Assembly (NCBI RefSeq): GCF_019974155.1
Contig: NZ_AP025158.1
Location: 1,674,001 to 1,738,000 of the forward strand
Direction of reading: 5' to 3'
Length of the DNA: 64,000 nucleotides
DNA from: Thermus thermophilus
GTDB lineage: Bacteria > Deinococcota > Deinococci > Deinococcales > Thermaceae
In this document: positions 49,344-57,382 of the stretch, in pieces
How the letters are laid out: each line of letters opens with the position of its first letter
Numbering within the stretch: position 1 is the first letter of the stretch
Notes under the pieces: model-generated
What the model was told of the DNA's origin: nothing
The model's database searches: none
The model's input: only the letters and a program-made list of their open reading frames with translations
Position numbers and translations under genes: made by a program

Positions 49344-51137
49344 GTGTTTCGGAACCTTCGGGCCTACCTCGAGGCCTTGGAACGCCGGGGGGAGCTCCAC
49401 CGGGTGAGGGTCCCGGTGAGCGCCGAGCTGGAGATCGCCGAGATCGCGGACCGGGTGGTGAAAGGGGAAGGCCCCGCCCTCCTCTTTGAGCGGGTGGTGG
49501 GCAAGGACTTCCCCGTGGCCATCGGGCTTTTCGGCACGAGGGCGCGCACGGCCTTCGCCCTGGGGGTGGCGGACCTGGACGAGCTTTCGGGGAAGGTGGA
49601 GCGCCTCCTCGCCCTGGAGCCGGGGAAGGGGGGGCTTTCCGCCCTCCTGGGCCTCCTCCCCAAGCTTCCCCTCCTCCGGGGCTTCTTCCCCAGGCGGGTG
49701 CGGAAGGCCCCGGTGCAGGAGGTGGTGTGGCGGGGGGAGGAGGTGGACCTAGGGCGCCTTCCCGTCCTCAAGTGCTGGCCTCTGGACGGGGGGCCCTTCC
49801 TCACCCTGCCCCTCGTCATCACCAAGGACCCCGAGACCGGGGAGCTCAACCTCGGCATGTACCGCATGCAGGTCCTGGACAAAAGGAGCACCGCCATGCA
49901 CTGGCAATGGCACAAGGTGGGCCGCCGCCACCTGGAGAAGGCGAAGAGGCTGGGGAGGAGGCTGGAGGTGGCCGTGGCCCTGGGAGGGGACCCGGTCCTC
50001 ACCTACGCCGCCACCGCACCCCTCCCTCCCTTGCCGGGGGTGAGCGAGTTCCACCTGGCGGGCTTCCTCCGGGGGGCCCCCATTGAGCTTGCCCGGGGGG
50101 TGACCGTGGACCTCCCCGTGCCCGCGGAGGCGGAGTTTGTCCTCGAGGGCTACATTGACCCCGAGGAGCCCCTGGTGGAGGAGGGGCCTTTTGGGGACCA
50201 CACGGGCTTCTACACCCCCGTGGACCTCTACCCCCGCTTCCACGTCACCGCCCTTACCCACCGGAAGGGGGCCATCTACCCCGCCACCCTCGTGGGCGTT
50301 CCCCCCATGGAGGACGCCTACCTCATTGAGGCCACGGAAAGGCTCTTCCTCCCCGCCCTCCGCCTGGTGCTCCCCGAGGTGGTGGACTACCACATGCCCC
50401 CCGAGGGGGTGGCCCACAACTGGGTGAACGTGGCTTTGCGCAAGGAGTACCCGGGGCAGGCCTACAAGGTGGCCTACGGGATGCTGGGCCTGGGGCAGAT
50501 GATGTTCGCCAAGGTCATTGTGGCCGTGGACGCGGACGTTCCGGTCAAGCCCGGGTTTGCTGCCCTGCTTGAGGCCCTCAAGCACGCCCTTCCCGGGCGG
50601 GACACCCTCCTCCTAAGGGGCCCCGTGGACGTCCTGGACCACAGCTCCCGGGCCTTCGCCTTCGGGGGGAAGCTCGTCATTGACGGCACGCGGAAGCTTC
50701 CCGAGGAGGGGGGAGAGGCGTCCTTTATTCCCAAGGCCCACCCCACGCTTCCCGAAGATCCCGAGGTCCTGGCCCAGAGGCAGTGGCCGGGCCTCTGGGG
50801 GGTGGTGCTGGCGAAGCGCCGCCCCCACCAGGCCTGGGAGGTGGCGGAGAGGCTCCTCGGCACCCCGCAAAGCGCCGGGATCCGGCTTCTCCTCCTCGCC
50901 GACGAGGACACGGCCCTAAGCCCGGAGGAACTCCTCTGGTACGTCCTCAACAACATAGACCCCGAGCGGGACGCCCGGGTGATGCCGGGGGTAGAGGGGC
51001 CGGTCTTGGTCCTGGACGGCACGCGGAAGCTCCCCGAGGAGGGCTTCCAAAGGGTCTGGCCCGAGAGGGTCCGGATGGACCCCAGGGTGAAGGCCCTGGT
51101 GGACGCCCGCTGGGAGGAGTACGGCTTCAGGCCCTGA
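49344..51137 (+). CDS. ubiD: UbiD family prenylated-FMN decarboxylase
   Basis: 597 aa. Contains the UbiD elements: DLGRLPVLKCWPLDGGPFLTLPLVITKDPETGELNLGMYRMQVLDKRSTAMHWQWHKVGRRHL, the E-x2-R-x9-E-type region EFVLEGYIDPEEPLVEEGPFGDHTGFY, and MVGVPPMEDAYLIEATE-like YPATLVGVPPMEDAYLIEATERLFLP. These enzymes use prenylated FMN to decarboxylate aromatic or alpha,beta-unsaturated acids; in Thermus (futalosine menaquinone route) one acts in quinone synthesis, so that role is plausible. GTG 49344 lies five bases after TAAGCT. Its end overlaps the HD-GYP gene by 11 bases. Confidence 0.9.
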   Translation: MFRNLRAYLEALERRGELHRVRVPVSAELEIAEIADRVVKGEGPALLFERVVGKDFPVAIGLFGTRARTAFALGVADLDELSGKVERLLALEPGKGGLSALLGLLPKLPLLRGFFPRRVRKAPVQEVVWRGEEVDLGRLPVLKCWPLDGGPFLTLPLVITKDPETGELNLGMYRMQVLDKRSTAMHWQWHKVGRRHLEKAKRLGRRLEVAVALGGDPVLTYAATAPLPPLPGVSEFHLAGFLRGAPIELARGVTVDLPVPAEAEFVLEGYIDPEEPLVEEGPFGDHTGFYTPVDLYPRFHVTALTHRKGAIYPATLVGVPPMEDAYLIEATERLFLPALRLVLPEVVDYHMPPEGVAHNWVNVALRKEYPGQAYKVAYGMLGLGQMMFAKVIVAVDADVPVKPGFAALLEALKHALPGRDTLLLRGPVDVLDHSSRAFAFGGKLVIDGTRKLPEEGGEASFIPKAHPTLPEDPEVLAQRQWPGLWGVVLAKRRPHQAWEVAERLLGTPQSAGIRLLLLADEDTALSPEELLWYVLNNIDPERDARVMPGVEGPVLVLDGTRKLPEEGFQRVWPERVRMDPRVKALVDARWEEYGFRP

Positions 51138-52071
51138 GGAGGCGGTTTCGCAAAAGCCCCGACCGGAAGGCCCGCACCACCTCCCGGGAAAGCTTCCCCT
51201 TCCGCGCCTCCTCCTCCAGGGCCTCCAGGGCCTCGTGGGGCTTTAGGGGCTTGCGGTAGGTGCGCACGCTGGTGAGGGCATCGTAAATGTCCGCGGCGCT
51301 TAGGGCCTGCACCAGAAGGGGGATCTCCGTGAGCCCGTCGGGGTAGCCGGAGCCGTCCAGCTTCTCGTGGTGCCAGCGCACGTAGGGGCGGAGGCGGGGG
51401 TGGGCCCGGAGGGGCCCCAGGATCTCGTCCCCCCTCACGGGGTGCTCGCGGATGAGCCGCCACTCGTGCTCGCTTAGGGGGTGGTCTCCCCGGAGGATGT
51501 GGTCGGGGATGGCGATCTTGCCCACGTCGTGGAGGAGCGCCCCCATGTGCAGGTCTTCCCGCTCCTCTTCCCTGGCCCCGAGTTCCTCCGCGGCCAGGAG
51601 GGCGTACCGGGCCACCCGCTCCCCGTGGCCCGCGGTGTAGGCGTCCTTGGCCTCCACCGCCCGCATGAGCACGAGGAGGGTCCGCTCCAGGTCCTCTAGC
51701 TTCTCCTGAAGCCGCCTGCGCTCCAGGTGCCCCTTCACCCGGAGGCGGAGCTCGGCGAGGTCCACGGGCCGGTTGAGGAAGTCGTCGGCCCCCGCCTCTA
51801 TCCCCTTCAGGCGCACCTCCCGCTCCCCATCCGCGGTGAGGAGGATCACGGGAAGAAGGGGGTCTTGGGCCTTGAGGCTTTGGGTGAGCTCCAGGCCGTC
51901 CATGACGGGCATGTGGAGGTCGGTGAGGACCACGTGGGGAAGCCTGTCCCTGAGGAGGTCCAAGGCCTCCTTCCCGTTCCTCGCCTCCCACACCTCCACC
52001 TCCAAAGGGGCCAGGGCCCGCATGAGGAGGCGCCGCTGAACGGGGTCGTCGTCCACCACCAAGACCCGCAT
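51127..52071 (-). CDS. Response regulator with HD-GYP output (RpfG-like)
   Basis: 314 aa. Receiver domain 1-120 (RVLVVDDDPVQRRLL; phospho-acceptor Asp in VVLTDLHMPVMDGLELTQ; Lys replaced region DDFLNRPVDLAEL). A linker helix leads to an HD-GYP domain (about 140-310): TAGHGERVARYALLAAEEL, LHMGALLHDVGKIAIPDHIL, HPVRGDEIL, HHEKLDGSGYPDGL with the GYP signature. HD-GYP proteins hydrolyse cyclic di-GMP. It is the last gene of the minus-strand signalling cluster. Confidence 0.93.
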   Translation of the reverse strand: MRVLVVDDDPVQRRLLMRALAPLEVEVWEARNGKEALDLLRDRLPHVVLTDLHMPVMDGLELTQSLKAQDPLLPVILLTADGEREVRLKGIEAGADDFLNRPVDLAELRLRVKGHLERRRLQEKLEDLERTLLVLMRAVEAKDAYTAGHGERVARYALLAAEELGAREEEREDLHMGALLHDVGKIAIPDHILRGDHPLSEHEWRLIREHPVRGDEILGPLRAHPRLRPYVRWHHEKLDGSGYPDGLTEIPLLVQALSAADIYDALTSVRTYRKPLKPHEALEALEEEARKGKLSREVVRAFRSGLLRNRLLRA

Positions 52072-52081
52072 CCTGGCCCCC

Positions 52082-52444
52082 CTAAAGGAGTTCTCTCAGC
52101 TCCTTGGCCGCTTCGCGGGCCTCGAGGTGGATGAGGCCCAGGTTGGCCCCCTGGGGGGCGGCCACCGCCAAGACCCCCTTCTCCCCCGCCTCGTACACCA
52201 CCAGGTAGCCTCCCGCTCCCCGCACCACCGCCTCCTGGAAGTCCCCGAGGCGCAAGGTGGAGGCGATGCGCTTGCCGAGGCCCAAGGAGGTGGCGGCCAT
52301 GGCCGCGATGCGGGGGGCCTCGGCCTCGGGGAAGTCGTGGGCGATGGGAAGCCCGTCCTGGGAGGCCACCATCACCCCGCGGATCTCGGGTACGGCCGCC
52401 TTGAGGTTCTGGATGAGTTCCTGAAGCGCTTCTACCTTATTCAT
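52082..52444 (-). CDS. Roadblock/LC7 domain protein (CvnB/MglB-like)
   Basis: 120 aa single Roadblock domain: QELIQNLKAAVPEIRGVMVASQDGLPIAHDFPEAEAPRIAAMAATSLGLGKRIASTL, then LVVYEAGEKGVLAVAAPQGANLGLIHLEAREAAKELREL. Roadblock proteins form dimers that bind and activate small Ras-like GTPases; the GTPase gene is two genes upstream in the same operon. Confidence 0.92.
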   Translation of the reverse strand: MNKVEALQELIQNLKAAVPEIRGVMVASQDGLPIAHDFPEAEAPRIAAMAATSLGLGKRIASTLRLGDFQEAVVRGAGGYLVVYEAGEKGVLAVAAPQGANLGLIHLEAREAAKELRELL

Positions 52445-52459
52445 ATCCTCAACCTCCGC

Positions 52460-52774
52460 TTACTCCAAAGAAAGGAGAAGGTGCTCAATCCTGCCGAAGA
52501 GCCGGTAAGCCTCGCTCAAAAGCCCCTCCGCTTCTTCCCGCTTGCCTTCTTCAAAAAGCCGCACCGCCTTCTCGGTGACCTCGTGGAAGGCCTCGTGGAG
52601 GACGCCGAGCTCCTGGAACTCGGCCCTTTCCCCGTACCGCGGGGCGGCCTCCCGGTACCATCGGCCCAGGCTGCACTCCGTGGGCGCGCTCAGGGGAGGA
52701 AACTCCCCTCCTTCCAGGAAGCGGGCCACGTTTTCTAGGTACCGCATGTGGGCGAGGACGATGGCCTCAATCAT
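52460..52774 (-). CDS. Stand-alone CZB (chemoreceptor zinc-binding) domain protein
   Basis: 104 aa, just a CZB domain. The zinc ligands can be assigned: His9 (VLAHMRYLENV), Cys34 in the diagnostic TECSLGRWYREAAPRYG, His60 and His64 in VLHEAFHEVTEKAV. CZB domains are usually fused to chemoreceptors or diguanylate cyclases, where they sense zinc or HOCl through the Cys. Here it is separate and lies between the GTPase (eight-base overlap) and Roadblock genes. Confidence 0.85.
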   Translation of the reverse strand: MIEAIVLAHMRYLENVARFLEGGEFPPLSAPTECSLGRWYREAAPRYGERAEFQELGVLHEAFHEVTEKAVRLFEEGKREEAEGLLSEAYRLFGRIEHLLLSLE

Positions 52775-53286
52775 CTTTCCCCTCCTTCAGGGTGAGTTCT
52801 AAGAGCTTCTCCACGGCTCCAAAGGCCTCCTCCCGCCTCCTCGGGTCTAGGCCCACCACCCGCTCCTCGGGGAGGCGCAGGTAGAGGGCCACCTCCTCGG
52901 GCGTCCAGGCCTTGGGCAGGTCCAAGCGGGTGACCCCCACCAGGTAGGGCACGGGGTGGCGGGTGGTGAGGTGCTCCAGGATATAGCGGGCCTTGGGGAG
53001 CCCCTCGGGGCGGTCCCCGGCCACCAGGAGGAGAAGCCCCAAGGCCCCTTCCATGAGGACGTCCCACATGAAGCTGAAGCGCTCCTGCCCCGGGGTGCCG
53101 AAGAGGTGGACGGGGTAGGGCCCCACTTGGAGCACCCCAAAGTCCAGGGCCACGGTTGGTCTCCTTGCCCAGGTCTTCGCTCGCCTTGGCCTCCGTGGCG
53201 AGGAAGCCCTCCCCCAAAAGGGTCCGGGCCAGGGTGGTCTTCCCCGCGCCCACGGGGCCGGAGATCACGAGCTTTAGCGGGCCCAT
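52767..53286 (-). pseudogene. CvnD-type Ras-like GTPase (COG2229), one-base frameshift
   Basis: Frame 1 from ATG 53286 gives MGPLKLVISGPVGAGKTTLARTLLGEGFLATEAKASEDLGKET (P-loop GPVGAGKTT); the rest continues in the next frame as TVALDFGVLQVGPYPVHLFGTPGQERFSFMWDVLMEGALGLLLLVAGDRP, VTRLDLPKAW (NKxD-like) and the C-terminus. TTVA-DFG, FGTPGQ-RF-FMWD are signatures of the conservon GTPases of actinomycetes. The shift is an extra T at 53156/53157 on the plus strand (GGTTGG where GGTGG is expected). If real, the GTPase is inactive; a sequencing error is possible. Overlaps the DUF4388 gene by 13 bases. Confidence 0.8.
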
Positions 53287-53894
53287 AGGCTCCTCAGGCC
53301 CGAAAGGAGTCCCTGGAGGAGGCCCTTGTCCTTGGGCCTGGCCCCCATCTCCGCCCGCCGGACGGCCCCTAGCCCCTGGAGCTTGTAGAGGTAGAGGCGC
53401 ACCTGGTCCAGGGGGATGGAGAGGGCCTGGGCGAGCTCCCTGGCCGAGGCCCCCCGCTTGAGGTGGGGCAGGGCGAGCTGGAAGAACTCCTTGAAGCGTG
53501 GGTCCTCGGGGGAGCTCCCCGCCAGGCGGAAGCGGGCCTCGGGGGAGGGGAGGAAGGGGCGGTAATGCTCAAGCTCGTCCTGGAGCGTGGTGAGGGAGAG
53601 GAGGACCCTTTCCGTGGGCCAGTTCAGGCGCTCCTTGTGCCTGGGCCTGGCCCCGGGGTGGAACTCAAAGCTTCCCTCTTTGGCCAGGAGCAAGGCCTGC
53701 AGGGTGGCCTTGGCGCTCAAGGGGGGAAGGGGCTTGCCGTGCTGGTCAACGGAGCGGATCCGCCCGGGCTTGAGGTAGATGGTGGTGGGGGGGATCTCCT
53801 TGAGGTTCCAGACCTCCAAAGCCCCTTCTTTATGGGCGAGTAGGGAGAGGATCTCCCCCAGGGGCATGGAATCCAGGCTTCCGAATAGGGCCAT
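53274..53894 (-). CDS. DUF4388 domain protein with C-terminal helix-turn-helix
   Basis: 206 aa. N-terminal DUF4388 (about 1-100: FGSLDSMPLGEILSLLAHKEGALEVWNLKEIPPTTIYLKPGRIRSVDQHGKPLPPLSAKATLQALLLAKEGSFEF). A C-terminal winged-helix-like part follows (about 150-190: LKRGASARELAQALSIPLDQVRLYLYKLQGLGAVRRAE). DNA binding is possible. Start ATG 53894 has GGAGGAGG upstream. First gene of the operon; the gap to trmB (74 bases) contains the divergent promoters. Confidence 0.82.
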   Translation of the reverse strand: MALFGSLDSMPLGEILSLLAHKEGALEVWNLKEIPPTTIYLKPGRIRSVDQHGKPLPPLSAKATLQALLLAKEGSFEFHPGARPRHKERLNWPTERVLLSLTTLQDELEHYRPFLPSPEARFRLAGSSPEDPRFKEFFQLALPHLKRGASARELAQALSIPLDQVRLYLYKLQGLGAVRRAEMGARPKDKGLLQGLLSGLRSLWAR

Positions 53895-53968: not shown

Positions 53969-54805
53969 GTGCTGGTGCGCCCCGCCCTCCTGCCCGCCTG
54001 GCCCCCGGCCCTAAAGGACCTCTTCGGGCGGGAAGGCCCTTTGGTCCTGGAGATCGGCTTCGGGGACGGGCGCTTCACCGCGGAGCTTGCCAAGGAGCAC
54101 CCCGACTGGCTCGTCCTGGGGGCGGAGGTCTCGGCGGCGAGCGTCCTTAGGGCCTACCGGCGGATGAAGCGGGAGGGGGTGGAAAACGTCCGCCTCTACC
54201 ACGGGGAGGGGCCTTTCGCCCTCAGGAACCTGGTGCCCCCGGGGAGCCTCCACCGGGTCATCGTGAACTTCCCCGACCCCTGGCCCAAGAAGCGCCACCA
54301 GGAAAGGCGCCTCCTCCAGGAGGCCTTTTTCCGGAGGCTTTCCACGAGGCTTGGGGAAGGGGGGGCCCTCCTCCTCACCACGGACCACGAGGAGTATTTC
54401 GGCTTCGCCCTGGAGGAAGCGGAGCGCACCGGGCTCTACCGCATAGAGGTGGGGCCGCCCCCCGAGGCCCACCTGAAGACCAAGTACGCCCTCAAGTGGA
54501 AGGAGGTGGGAAGGACCTTCTTCCACGCGGTCTTCACCAAGGTGGCCGAGGACCCCACCCCTTGGTCCCCCATAAGGAGGTACGCCGTGGCCCACGCCCT
54601 GCTCAAAGGAGAGCTCCCGGAAACCCTTTCCCTGGAGAAGACCCCGGTGCCCGTTCCCGGGGGTGTGGCCGTCTTCTTGGAGGTGGCCCGGGGGAAGGAG
54701 GGGTTTTACGTCCTCATACCCTTTCTTGTTTTGTATTCTTCGTCCATGACCGTGGCCGACCACCTGACCCTGAACGAACTGTGGCGGAGGGTCAAGAAGG
54801 CTTGA
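53969..54805 (+). CDS. trmB: tRNA (guanine-N7-)-methyltransferase, altered C-terminus
   Basis: 278 aa. AdoMet motif [47 protein letters not shown] (the TrmB signature), [11 protein letters not shown], and [21 protein letters not shown]. It makes m7G46 in tRNA. GTG 53969 follows TATAAT by eight bases (leaderless). The last ~40 residues are outside the catalytic fold; residues 260-278 ([19 protein letters not shown]) sit behind an AT-rich, promoter-like stretch, and the TGA is supplied by the end of the adjacent IS, so the native C-terminus may differ. Confidence 0.88.
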
Positions 54806-54830
54806 TCCAGCCCCCTAAACTTAGACACTT

Positions 54831-55820
54831 TCACCCTGCCTCCCATGTGATGTCCTGTGTGCTTTGCCCCAGCGCCTCCTCCATCGCCTCCCTCGGCGTC
54901 CGATAACCGAGCCCCGAGTGCAGCCAGCTCTCGTGGTAGTAGCGTAGGCGCTCCTTCACCACCTCCTTTAGCTCCCCAAGGCTTCTGGCCTCCAAAAACT
55001 GGTCTCCTCCCTCCCCCTTGAACCGGGCAAAAAAGCTCTCCACCACAGGGTTTCCCTTAGCCCCCATCAGGCTGTAGGAAAGCCGCTGCCCGTCCCTGAG
55101 AAGAAGCGTCCCCACCCAGTCGTGGCTCAGGAAAGGTCCCCCCTGGTCATGGTGCACCAGGGCCCTGGGGAGCCTCCCCACCTGGGCCTGGAGAAAGGCC
55201 TTGGCCTCCTCCCACGCCTCCAGGGCCAGCTCCGCCGAGGGAGAAGGCCCTAAACCCCAGGCCACCACCATCCGGGTTCTGTGGGGAACGTAGCCGCCAA
55301 GGCGGCTGACCCAGGATGGGCACGAACCAGGCCTTCCCTCCCCGGTAGGGCAGGAGGGTGAAGTCGGTGTACAAGAGCTCAAAGGGCTCCGGTTCCCTCT
55401 GCCTGAGAAGGGAGGCCCTCAAGTCTGCTCTGTCCCCGGCCAGGAGGACGATCTGCAGCAGGGGGTTGGGCTTGGGCCTCCGAACGGTGCGCTTCAGGGA
55501 GAGGTGGAAGTCCTGCAGTAGGCGGTGGACCCGTTTGTGGTTGACCAGAATGCCCTTTCTGTGGAGCTCCTTGGTGACCCGGCGGTAGCCGTACTCGGGG
55601 TGCTCCAGCAAGACCTCTTCGATGGCCCCCTTGAGGCGGAGGTCTTCCTCCTCCCTTTTCCTGTCCGCCCCAAGCTAGGCTTCGCCTGACCCACCTTCTG
55701 CTTCCGGTAGTAGTACCAGGTGGCCCGAGGGATCTCCAGAGCGCTGAGGACGATGGGCAGGGGAGCCAGACCCTGGGCCAGCGCCTCGCGGGCCAGGTCG
55801 ATGCGCTCGCCCAGGGTCAT
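54831..55820 (-). pseudogene. IS3 orfB (DDE transposase), two or more frameshifts
   Basis: The catalytic parts are spread over three frames: MTLGERIDLAREALAQGLAPLPIVLSALEIPRATWYYYRKQ, then HPEYGYRRVTKELHRKGILVNHKRVHRLLQD and ELLYTDFTLLPYRGGKAWFVPIL (first D), then ALVHHDQGGPFLS (second D) and NPVVESFFARFKGEGGD (E). The reading frame is lost near 55660 and near 55310. Non-functional. Confidence 0.82.
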
Positions 55821-55839
55821 CCGCTTTACCTCCCCTGCC

Positions 55840-56171
55840 CTAGGGTCACGCGAAGCGTAGGTTCGGCTTTTTTAGGAGGGCGATCTCCACTTCCTTTTTG
55901 CCGATGAGCTGTTCCAGGTCACGGATCTTCTTCTCCAGCTCCTTCACAAGCTAGCCCTGACGGGCTGACCTTGGGTCTCGTTGGAGAAGATGGTGGCCCC
56001 CTTCTCCATGAGCTCCGCCTTCCACTTCACGATGGTGTTGGGGTGGACATTGTAGATGCGGGCGAGTTCCACCAGGCTCTTCTCCCCCTTGATGGCCTCC
56101 AGAGCTGCTTGAAACTTAACCTGTGGGGGTACCGCTTTGGGCTTCTTCACTAACCTCCCGGATGGGGTCAT
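55840..56171 (-). pseudogene. IS3 orfA (transposase HTH subunit), broken
   Basis: From ATG 56171: VPPQVKFQAALEAIKGEKSLVELARIYNVHPNTIVKWKAELMEKGATIF is the OrfA helix-turn-helix. It ends at a premature stop after QPVRASL; the leucine-zipper tail VKELEKKIRDLEQLIGKKEVEIALLKK continues in another frame to about 55850. Confidence 0.8.
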
Positions 56172-56210
56172 CCTACATCAAAGTTGGCGTCTAGTCTAGG
56201 GGGTCCACAT

Positions 56211-57382
56211 CTGAGCTCTCATCACTTTGAGGGCTGGGGCTTGACAAGGGAAGAGAAGAGGGGGGTAAGTAAGGTGTGCCGCCCACCACCCCCCTTTCCC
56301 AAGTTATCACCCTCTGGGTCCATAAGGTCTTCGCCTCCCTCAGGAAAACCATCCGCTCCAACCTCGCCCTCTTCCTGTCCACCCTCCTCACTACCCCCCT
56401 GGACCCCACCCTCTCCGACCTCGCCCGCAGAACCCCCCTCCCCACCCTGGCCCAAAGCCGCCTCAATCGCCTCTGGCGCTTCCTCCATCACCCCACCCTG
56501 CAAGACCCCTGGGCCCTCACCGAAGCCCTCCTCCCCCTCCTCGTCCCTCGTTTCCCCAAAGACCGCCCCCTCCCCCTCATCGTGGACTGGACCTTCACAG
56601 AGGACGGTAGGCACCAAGCCCTGGTGGCCGCCCTTCCCCTCAAGGGAAGGGCCCTGGTGGTGGCCTTCGCTCTTCACCCCCTCTCCCCTTTCCCCAGTCA
56701 AAACCGGGTGGAGGAGGAGTTCCTCCACCGCCTGGGCCGCGCCGTCCAGGACCTGGGATATACCCCCTCTTCCTCCTGGACCGCGGCTTTGACCGGGTCT
56801 CCCTGATGCGAAAGCTCCAGGGGTGGGGCATGGGCTTCCTCATCCGCCTGCGGCAGAACCGGGAGGTGGAACCCCAAGGGGGAAGCGCCTTCCCCTGAAG
56901 GAGGGCTACCGGCGTGTGGTCCACCCCCTGCGGGAGGAGGTCCGCCTTTTCGGACACGGTGGGGAGGGGGTAGAAGTCACCCTCCTGGTGTACCCAGGGG
57001 GTCGGGATCCCTGGTATCTGGCCTATTCGGGCCCTTTTGGGGGGGAGCCGCCCTATGGGTGGCGGATGTGGATTGAAGAGGGGTTTAGGGACCTGAAGGG
57101 GCAGGGGTTTGGGCTGGACCGCCATCGGCTGCGGACGGGGGCGAGCCTCAGGGGGTGGTTATGGCTTCTGGCCTTGGGGATGGCGCTCTTGGTCCTTCTG
57201 GGGGCGCGCTTGCAGGGCAGGGAATGGCTTCCCCGGCTTCTGGCCCATCCCGAGCGGCAAAGCCTCTTCCGTCTGGGCCGGATCGCCCTGGCCCAGGGGC
57301 CCCCGCCTTGGAGGGAAGCAGTGGTGGAGGAGCTGGTCAGGTTGCTTCAGGAACTGGGGGGAGGAAAGTGATGAGAGCTCAG
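56211..57382 (+). mobile_element. Decayed IS4-family element with perfect ends
   Basis: 1172 bases bounded by 18-bp perfect inverted repeats: CTGAGCTCTCATCACTTT (56211-56228) and AAAGTGATGAGAGCTCAG (57365-57382). The right end is 12 bases from the -35 of the 23S rRNA promoter. It abuts the IS3 element, separated by one base. Confidence 0.88.
56276..57371 (+). pseudogene. IS4-family transposase, two frameshifts
   Basis: DDE core across three frames: PLPLIVDWTFTEDGRHQAL (first D), then a shift near 56765 into LFLLDRGFDRVSLMRKLQGWGMGFLIRLRQNREVE (second D), then a second shift near 56875 into PLKEGYRRVVHPLREE, DPWYLAYSGPFGG and YGWRMWIEEGFRDLKGQGFGL (the YREK-like E). Inactive. Confidence 0.85.

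Follow-up and report, generated by a model that had tools for sequence, protein, structure and literature searches.

What feeds a signal into a small GTPase of the MglA type that is encoded next to its Roadblock partner in an operon without a histidine kinase? To our knowledge, the inputs to bacterial MglA-type GTPases outside of Myxococcus and the conservons are poorly known. The question is raised by a locus in a 64,000-nucleotide stretch of the Thermus thermophilus genome (positions 1,674,001 to 1,738,000 of contig NZ_AP025158.1, assembly GCF_019974155.1; hereafter, the window; the host genome amounts to 2.17 Mb in 2 contigs). At positions 51127-53894 of the window, five minus-strand genes encode, in the order of transcription, a DUF4388 (PATAN) protein, a small GTPase, a stand-alone CZB protein, a Roadblock/LC7 protein, and a response regulator with the REC-HD-GYP architecture. 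The domains, order, strand, and tight spacing of these genes, as given in a prediction made previously from the sequence alone (hereafter, the original prediction), were borne out by Pfam searches and open reading frame (ORF) coordinates: the DUF4388 and GTPase genes overlap by 13 bases, the GTPase and CZB genes by 4-8 bases, and the gaps that separate CZB from Roadblock and Roadblock from REC-HD-GYP are 15 and 10 bases, respectively, which is the spacing of one operon. We lean, with modest confidence, toward the view that this operon is the Thermus version of a wider module in which a Group 5-like GTPase, a Roadblock protein, and a PATAN-winged-helix protein are combined with an exchangeable cytosolic sensor and with outputs through PATAN and cyclic dimeric guanosine monophosphate (c-di-GMP).

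The evidence that carries this view is the exchange of the sensor itself. A search of 111 Deinococcota genomes with the GTPase (E<=1e-11) yielded matches in 24 genomes, and merging the pieces in G000, G008, and G014 and setting aside two remnants left 30 loci, which were annotated with self-built profiles iterated at E<=1e-4 and with Pfam searches of the genomes, Pfam also serving as a check on a sample. The slot is filled by a protoglobin in 16 of these loci, by a CZB protein in 8 (5 from Thermus and 3 from genus g14), by neither in 6, and by both in none. The gene order is DUF4388-GTPase-CZB-Roadblock-REC-HD-GYP in Thermus, DUF4388-GTPase-Roadblock-CZB-DUF4388 in g14, and DUF4388-GTPase-Roadblock-protoglobin in genus g13. 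The GTPases of g13 and g14 are sisters (support 95/87 in a 58-row tree and 92 in another tree), so their two gene orders represent one slot with two contents. The appearance of a second soluble sensor family in the same place provides independent support for CZB as the likely input to the GTPase/Roadblock pair, which had been proposed in the original prediction with no mention of a globin counterpart.

The globin version is not confined to Deinococcota: it was detected in Cyanobacteria, Chloroflexota, Pseudoxanthomonas, Pseudomonas, and a WOR-3 genome. Of 415 named loci, the best 80, a sample biased to close relatives, were examined: 26 contain a protoglobin and 3 contain a CZB, two of the latter being Deinococcota loci already counted and the third (L186) coming from a proteobacterium whose GTPase falls in another clade. 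Together with 33 Deinococcota stretches, these make 113 annotated loci, with some repeats inside the counts: 5 of the named loci are contigs shared with the Deinococcota set (L111, L112, L113, L115, and L117 correspond to the G069, G019, G005, G028, and G008 stretches), and one CZB gene and two globin genes with split frames are counted as two or more hits each. The 49 protoglobin hits, from 41 loci, are all no more than 2 kb away from a GTPase gene, and the range of 2-10 kb is empty, although 71 of the 113 loci extend 4 kb or farther in both directions; a Roadblock gene is present on the same strand for 48 of the 49 globin hits and for 12 of the 12 CZB hits (11 loci), and all but one of the 61 sensor hits have a GTPase on their own strand. 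That the genes are unrelated neighbors brought together by chance, as the patchy occurrence of the set in Thermus might suggest, has a negligible probability in view of the tight overlaps, the same order in 5 Thermus genomes, the related order in g14, and the proximity of the sensor genes (no more than 2 kb) in several phyla; the recurrence of the order across phyla excludes chance in practice.

The sequences of both sensors are compatible with ligand binding. The four predicted zinc ligands of the window CZB (H9, C34, H60, and H64) are conserved without exception in the 12 aligned CZBs and fit the 3His/1Cys core described for this domain (PMC8262984, PMC13370339). The motif CX(L/F)GXW(Y/L) reads CSLGRWY in the window, and the three g14 CZBs have methionine at the L/F place. 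In the protoglobins, one histidine is invariant in all 48 filled alignment rows; we read it as the putative proximal heme ligand, and the operon protoglobins presumably bind heme. Among the cassette-bearing Thermus genomes, the pairwise ratios of nonsynonymous to synonymous substitution rates (dN/dS) over the five genes range from 0.09 to 0.50, with 0.12-0.30 for CZB, 0.09-0.30 for the GTPase part, and 0.15-0.27 for Roadblock, that is, these proteins evolve under purifying selection. Low dN/dS and the recurrence of the set in four other Thermus genomes indicate that the gene set is more than a chance assembly.

Plasmids extend the range of arrangements. A GTPase match is present in 128 plasmid records (Thermus 4, Deinococcus 10), of which 2 from Thermus, 3 from Deinococcus, and 3 from Streptomyces were examined. 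T. brockianus pTB1 encodes DUF4388, GTPase, protoglobin, a second, weak protoglobin, Roadblock, protoglobin, EAL, and HD-GYP, and T. oshimai pTHEOS01 encodes DUF4388, GTPase, Roadblock, protoglobin, and EAL. All three Deinococcus plasmids contain a PATAN-like gene, recognized by our own profile and missed by Pfam, followed by GTPase and Roadblock; in two of them, a 157-159 amino acid (aa) protein occupies the slot directly after GTPase and Roadblock (L197:4959-5432 and L199:5140-5619). This protein matches no Pfam family and is unrelated to our globin, CZB, and Roadblock profiles; by eye, it may resemble V4R domains. Tentatively, and with slightly more doubt than belief, one could recognize here a widespread operon class, with a PATAN/GTPase/Roadblock core and a plug-in slot (for a globin, a CZB, or other small soluble proteins, such as the 157-159 aa protein), that would transmit oxygen, redox, or zinc signals through the GTPase to the pilus or to c-di-GMP, the Thermus form doing so without a kinase in the operon.

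Several further arrangements were encountered in the survey. One contig (L048, G063:C1:1-20000) carries the globin-type module twice, about 10 kb apart, with a broken Roadblock frame in both copies; a joined Roadblock-globin frame is seen there as well and, because of these breaks, was discounted as evidence of a fusion. In two Calothrix-type cyanobacteria (L130, L132), one protoglobin gene is flanked by two GTPase and Roadblock sets. In g13 (L060:19-6303), the globin-type module is immediately preceded by genes for a PAS-GGDEF-EAL protein, two REC-winged-helix regulators, and a TPR-repeat histidine kinase. Twelve genomes of genus g4, from the same family, encode CZB proteins away from such a GTPase (L066-L077, L086-L088), in one case near a GGDEF hit.

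The features of the window operon are listed in the table below.

Table. Genes of the window operon in the order of transcription, with the evidence for each assignment (pLDDT, predicted local distance difference test)
Feature	Coordinates	Strand	Evidence and traits
DUF4388 (PATAN) protein, 206 aa	53274..53894	-	Pfam DUF4388 E=1.2e-11; PATAN aa 5-108; predicted winged helix ~aa 132-180; short low-confidence C-terminal helix; AlphaFold2 pLDDT 88.6
Small GTPase, N-terminal part in frame	53155..53286	-	P-loop GPVGAGKT; residues 1-45 match here
Small GTPase, remainder in other frame	52767..53153	-	Switch I, GTPGQ, VTRLD; ORF and alignment
Stand-alone CZB protein, 104 aa	52460..52774	-	Pfam CZB E=1.9e-12; CSLGRWY motif; predicted zinc ligands H9, C34, H60, H64; four-helix model, pLDDT 96.5
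Roadblock/LC7 protein (MglB/CvnB-like), 120 aa	52082..52444	-	Pfam Robl_LC7 E=3.5e-20
Response regulator REC-HD-GYP, predicted c-di-GMP phosphodiesterase, 314 aa	51127..52071	-	Response_reg 2.3e-28, HD_5 1.7e-28

The DUF4388 profile is matched by 19 of 19 aligned PATAN relatives (Pfam), and in the AlphaFold2 model of the window protein, an N-terminal domain of mixed structure is followed by a winged helix and then by a loose helix at the C-terminus. The Roadblock protein contains the Asp-Gly pair (SQDG) and adjoins the GTPase, as expected of an MglA-coupled MglB homolog; its relatives in the PDB include 7f8m, CvnB5 (3leq, E=4.2e-10), and MglB. In the response regulator, the HD and GYP motifs (HDVGK and HHEKLDGSGYP) lie C-terminal to a REC domain with Asp51, and Arg101 stands at the place of what we take to be the usual REC lysine.

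The GTPase gene of the window is not a single open frame. The frame is lost at about 53155-53160: the ORF 52771-53286 encodes the P-loop and continues out of frame thereafter, and the ORF 52767-53153 takes over from switch I onward. When read through, the sequence contains GPVGAGKT, TTVALDFG, GTPGQ, and VTRLD, matches the small_GTP profile at 43.6 bits (cut-off 42.5), and weakly matches MglA structures (E=2.8e-4). The gene described as one in the original prediction is thus in two frames, with the 'TTVA-DFG' string given there spanning the break, which went unremarked. The gene is in frame in all four other cassette-bearing Thermus genomes, and of the window ORFs that could be paired well with the compared G051 stretch (8, a small sample), 7 are whole, the GTPase alone being split. 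The open frame beyond the break comprises 128 codons and, with dN/dS of 0.20-0.30 versus three relatives, is still constrained, so the break appears to be either a recent event or a sequencing error. Other genes with split frames are CZB in G068, DUF4388 in G045, and ubiD in G069, and some of these breaks may be sequencing errors in drafts. Programmed frameshifting was considered from the nucleotide sequence alone and set aside: no slippery run was seen, and the gene is in frame in the four other genomes.

The same set in the same order is found between trmB and ubiD in G051, G053, G068, and G069 (with the CZB frame split in G068). Conservation of the locus in other Thermus genomes, which the original prediction had set as a test, holds for 4 of the 26 other genomes searched; 2 more retain remnants, and the rest do not show the set. 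An ortholog of REC-HD-GYP (E<=1e-90) is present in 22 of the 27 Thermus genomes, the host included. The GTPase-CZB-Roadblock cassette is present in 5 of the 27 and left remnants in 2, and 15 genomes have REC-HD-GYP without the cassette. The 22 REC-HD-GYP loci accordingly divide into 5 with the cassette, 2 with a remnant, 11 with DUF4388 and REC-HD-GYP only, 1 with a truncated DUF4388, 2 without DUF4388, and 1 fragment; DUF4388 is truncated or lost in G058, G063, and G070. In the remnants (L041 in G066 and L051 in G067), separate deletions within the operon joined a stretch of the GTPase gene to the end of the Roadblock gene, and a short open frame ahead of REC-HD-GYP was kept; both genomes adjoin cassette-bearing sisters in the tree (G069 and G053). 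On a 21-row Thermus tree, built without G061 (the fragment) and the five Thermus genomes lacking a REC-HD-GYP match at E<=1e-90, the presence of the cassette requires at least 5 changes. Contrary to this tree, the DUF4388 of G068 groups with G053/G067 (91/93), a hint of transfer. Both loss and transfer of the cassette are likely: apparently, it was repeatedly lost, and probably passed on, while REC-HD-GYP stayed, and it is perhaps tuned to the niche. This loss-prone distribution, like the frameshift, did not figure in the original prediction. Upstream of the operon, similarity of the trmB-like gene (start 53969) to its G051 relative ends at residue 249 of 311, and beyond it, at 54715-57371, transposase-like ORFs broken over several frames are seen by eye; the trmB-like gene looks to have been cut by mobile elements.

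These data raise a serious possibility, only a little short of an even chance, that the module of the host genome is a decaying relic in which the GTPase is dead and REC-HD-GYP, perhaps along with PATAN, is the sole working part. The frameshift in the window, the in-operon deletion remnants in G066 and G067 beside cassette-bearing sisters, and the erosion of DUF4388 in three genomes all point in this direction, whereas the constraint on the codons past the break and the intactness of the other four window genes point away from it. Decay in the host genome would be compatible with a working sensor-GTPase module in the intact relatives.

A different question is which partner the sensor serves. 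Known CZB domains belong mostly to chemoreceptors and c-di-GMP enzymes (PMC8262984), and REC-HD-GYP adjoins the cassette in 5 of 5 Thermus copies, so CZB could be the sensor of the c-di-GMP enzyme, or else of the PATAN protein, rather than of Roadblock and the GTPase, the genes being merely co-expressed. We consider this unlikely: by distance, protoglobins and CZBs track GTPase and Roadblock genes closely and c-di-GMP genes loosely, and REC-HD-GYP persists without CZB in most Thermus. In the three g14 operons (L055, L059, L063), moreover, CZB is encoded next to Roadblock, and the stretches examined gave neither an HD-GYP nor a GGDEF hit, a result that speaks against CZB serving a c-di-GMP enzyme and also counts against the module we favor. 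In 12 chosen GTPase-bearing genomes, a GGDEF or HD_5 match lies within 8 kb at 10 of 17 loci (remnants uncounted), the seven loci without one being two in G063, three in G001, one in G005, and one in G028. These genomes contain 8 to 37 GGDEF and HD_5 matches each, and by density, fewer than 1 in 10 Thermus loci would be expected to have a match nearby, although the loci are related and the comparison is no independent test. The link to a c-di-GMP enzyme drawn in the original prediction recurs at these loci, but not in the three g14 CZB operons in the stretches examined. A connection to chemotaxis through Hpt was dropped, with zero Hpt matches in the host genome.

Other observations, too, weigh against the sensor-GTPase module that we favor. 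Six of the 30 Deinococcota loci contain neither sensor. Across the phylum, CZB is found in 22 of 111 genomes (25 matches, 8 of these in GTPase operons) and protoglobin in 79 of 111; among the protoglobin matches listed, 22 sit in GTPase loci, most in the phylum are elsewhere, and the sole protoglobin of the host genome is far from the window. The GTPase copy in the host genome may be inactive because its frame is broken, and the CZB frame is split in G068. The absence of the cassette from most Thermus genomes that keep REC-HD-GYP implies that the cassette is dispensable and that REC-HD-GYP works without it. PDB structure searches at E<=0.001 returned nothing for the CZB model, the hits below that threshold of significance being mostly unrelated helical bundles and helical membrane receptors, and nothing for the DUF4388 model, the best hit being a winged helix (2yu3, E=0.022); among PDB sequences, the CZB matched three entries whose names look like those of designed proteins, none of them a CZB. 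Finally, the globin of HGbRL, the Roadblock fusion discussed below, belongs to another class than the operon protoglobins (PMC4476040).

For the module that we favor, we infer the binding steps, the direction of control, the outputs, and the phenotype as follows. The contact of CZB with the Roadblock dimer would be altered when the 3His/1Cys site of CZB takes up zinc or loses it in a redox-driven manner; the changed contact would shift the GTPase between the GDP and GTP forms; the GTPase would then act through the PATAN protein on the pilus motor or on DNA and, at the Thermus locus, would together with REC-HD-GYP lower c-di-GMP. Control of the pilus is a reasoned guess by analogy, prompted by reports that PilB1, the pilus motor of Synechocystis, is an interaction partner of PATAN-REC proteins (PMC9090330; similarly, PMC7690835) and that PilF of T. 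thermophilus binds c-di-GMP (PMC11731258). If the scheme is correct, the globin-or-zinc slot in alike operons of sister genera names the likely input of the GTPase/Roadblock core, some stand-alone protoglobins and CZB proteins gain a concrete partner, and matched pairs become available in which the same core is combined with an O2-type or a zinc-type sensor.

How the operon compares with known systems depends, first, on the class of its GTPase. The window GTPase has GTPGQ in G3 and, in G2, threonine replacing the arginine of Group 1, traits common to Groups 2-5; on motif and phylum, it fits MglA Group 5, and is best called Group 5-like. The members of Group 5 resemble the window set in comprising a small GTPase and a Roadblock protein, with GTPGQ, the G2 threonine, representatives in Deinococcus-Thermus, and, in some cases, PATAN genes nearby, as is also the case for some Group 1 mglA genes (PMC4316618, Wuichet and Sogaard-Andersen 2014). 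Part of the gene set is therefore not new; the new element here is the CZB in the sensor slot of a GTPase/Roadblock operon. Differences from Group 5 are that CZB, HD-GYP, globin, and zinc are absent from the main text of PMC4316618 and that some CZB-type GTPases carry other G3 variants, namely, GVPGQ in G051 and G069 (identical sequence) and GAPGQ in G053 and G068. Full-text searches, which leave most subscription journals uncovered, retrieved no paper on DUF4388 or protoglobin with Roadblock and GTPase; for DUF4388 with Thermus, they retrieved a gene table in which DUF4388 adjoins a GTPase.

A close parallel in operon form is the conservon, in which a GTPase and a Roadblock protein are likewise accompanied by stand-alone accessory GAF or P450 proteins (CvnE/CvnF) thought to be sensors (PMC13343842, 2026). 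Such sensors, the match of the window Roadblock protein to both Robl_LC7 and CvnB5 (3leq), and the GTPGQ signature shared by Groups 2-5 (PMC4316618) could be taken to mean that the operon is a true conservon with CvnA and CvnC replaced by other parts. We built a midpoint-rooted tree of 58 rows, 50 hand-picked from a 110-row set (with the window copy entered as P0001, and L037, L039-L043, L051, L117, and short matches left out) and 8 from plasmids, including three CvnD from Streptomyces plasmids. The three CvnD form a clade of their own (100/99) beside other Actinomycetota rows, outside of the 37-row clade (98/95) that includes the window GTPase, and the larger CvnD-holding clade also includes two Chloroflexota globin-type GTPases (L181, L185), which leaves no great distance between the two kinds. 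Pfam detected no kinase domain, as expected of CvnA, in the five window genes, and DUF742, the CvnC domain, was hit by 1 of the 19 DUF4388 proteins at E=0.0033, which fails the cut-off, compared to 1.8e-36 for a genuine CvnC; with that single hit, kinship of the PATAN C-terminus with DUF742 was rejected, and it was taken as a generic winged helix. Given the tree and the missing kinase and DUF742, conservon membership is rejected, with a very slim probability left to it, and the label 'CvnD-type' applied to the GTPase in the original prediction has to be withdrawn. Thus, the operon differs from conservons in the absence of a histidine kinase and DUF742, in the separate clade of its GTPase, and in its CZB or globin sensors; globin, CZB, and Thermus are absent from the main text of PMC13343842.

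On the sensor side, two systems bear comparison. HGbRL of Methylacidiphilum couples a heme globin to a Roadblock/LC7 domain, as we propose for the globin-type operons, and differs in being a fusion, with no PATAN reported in the part of PMC4476040 available; in the same full-text searches, this fusion was the only case of a globin with MglA and Roadblock. DgcZ and the CZB chemoreceptors share with the window protein a cytosolic 3His/1Cys zinc domain, in their case tied to c-di-GMP or taxis (PMC8262984). CZB sequences without any other detected domain made up 27.1% in the survey reported there, some of them perhaps incomplete, and the main text of that paper does not mention Roadblock or GTPase, Roadblock being absent from a second CZB paper as well, with no literature search dedicated to CZB with Roadblock having been made. 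In DgcZ and TlpD, the CZB domain is fused to its output, whereas the CZB of the window is a separate protein encoded in a GTPase operon, in the slot that is filled by a globin in related operons.

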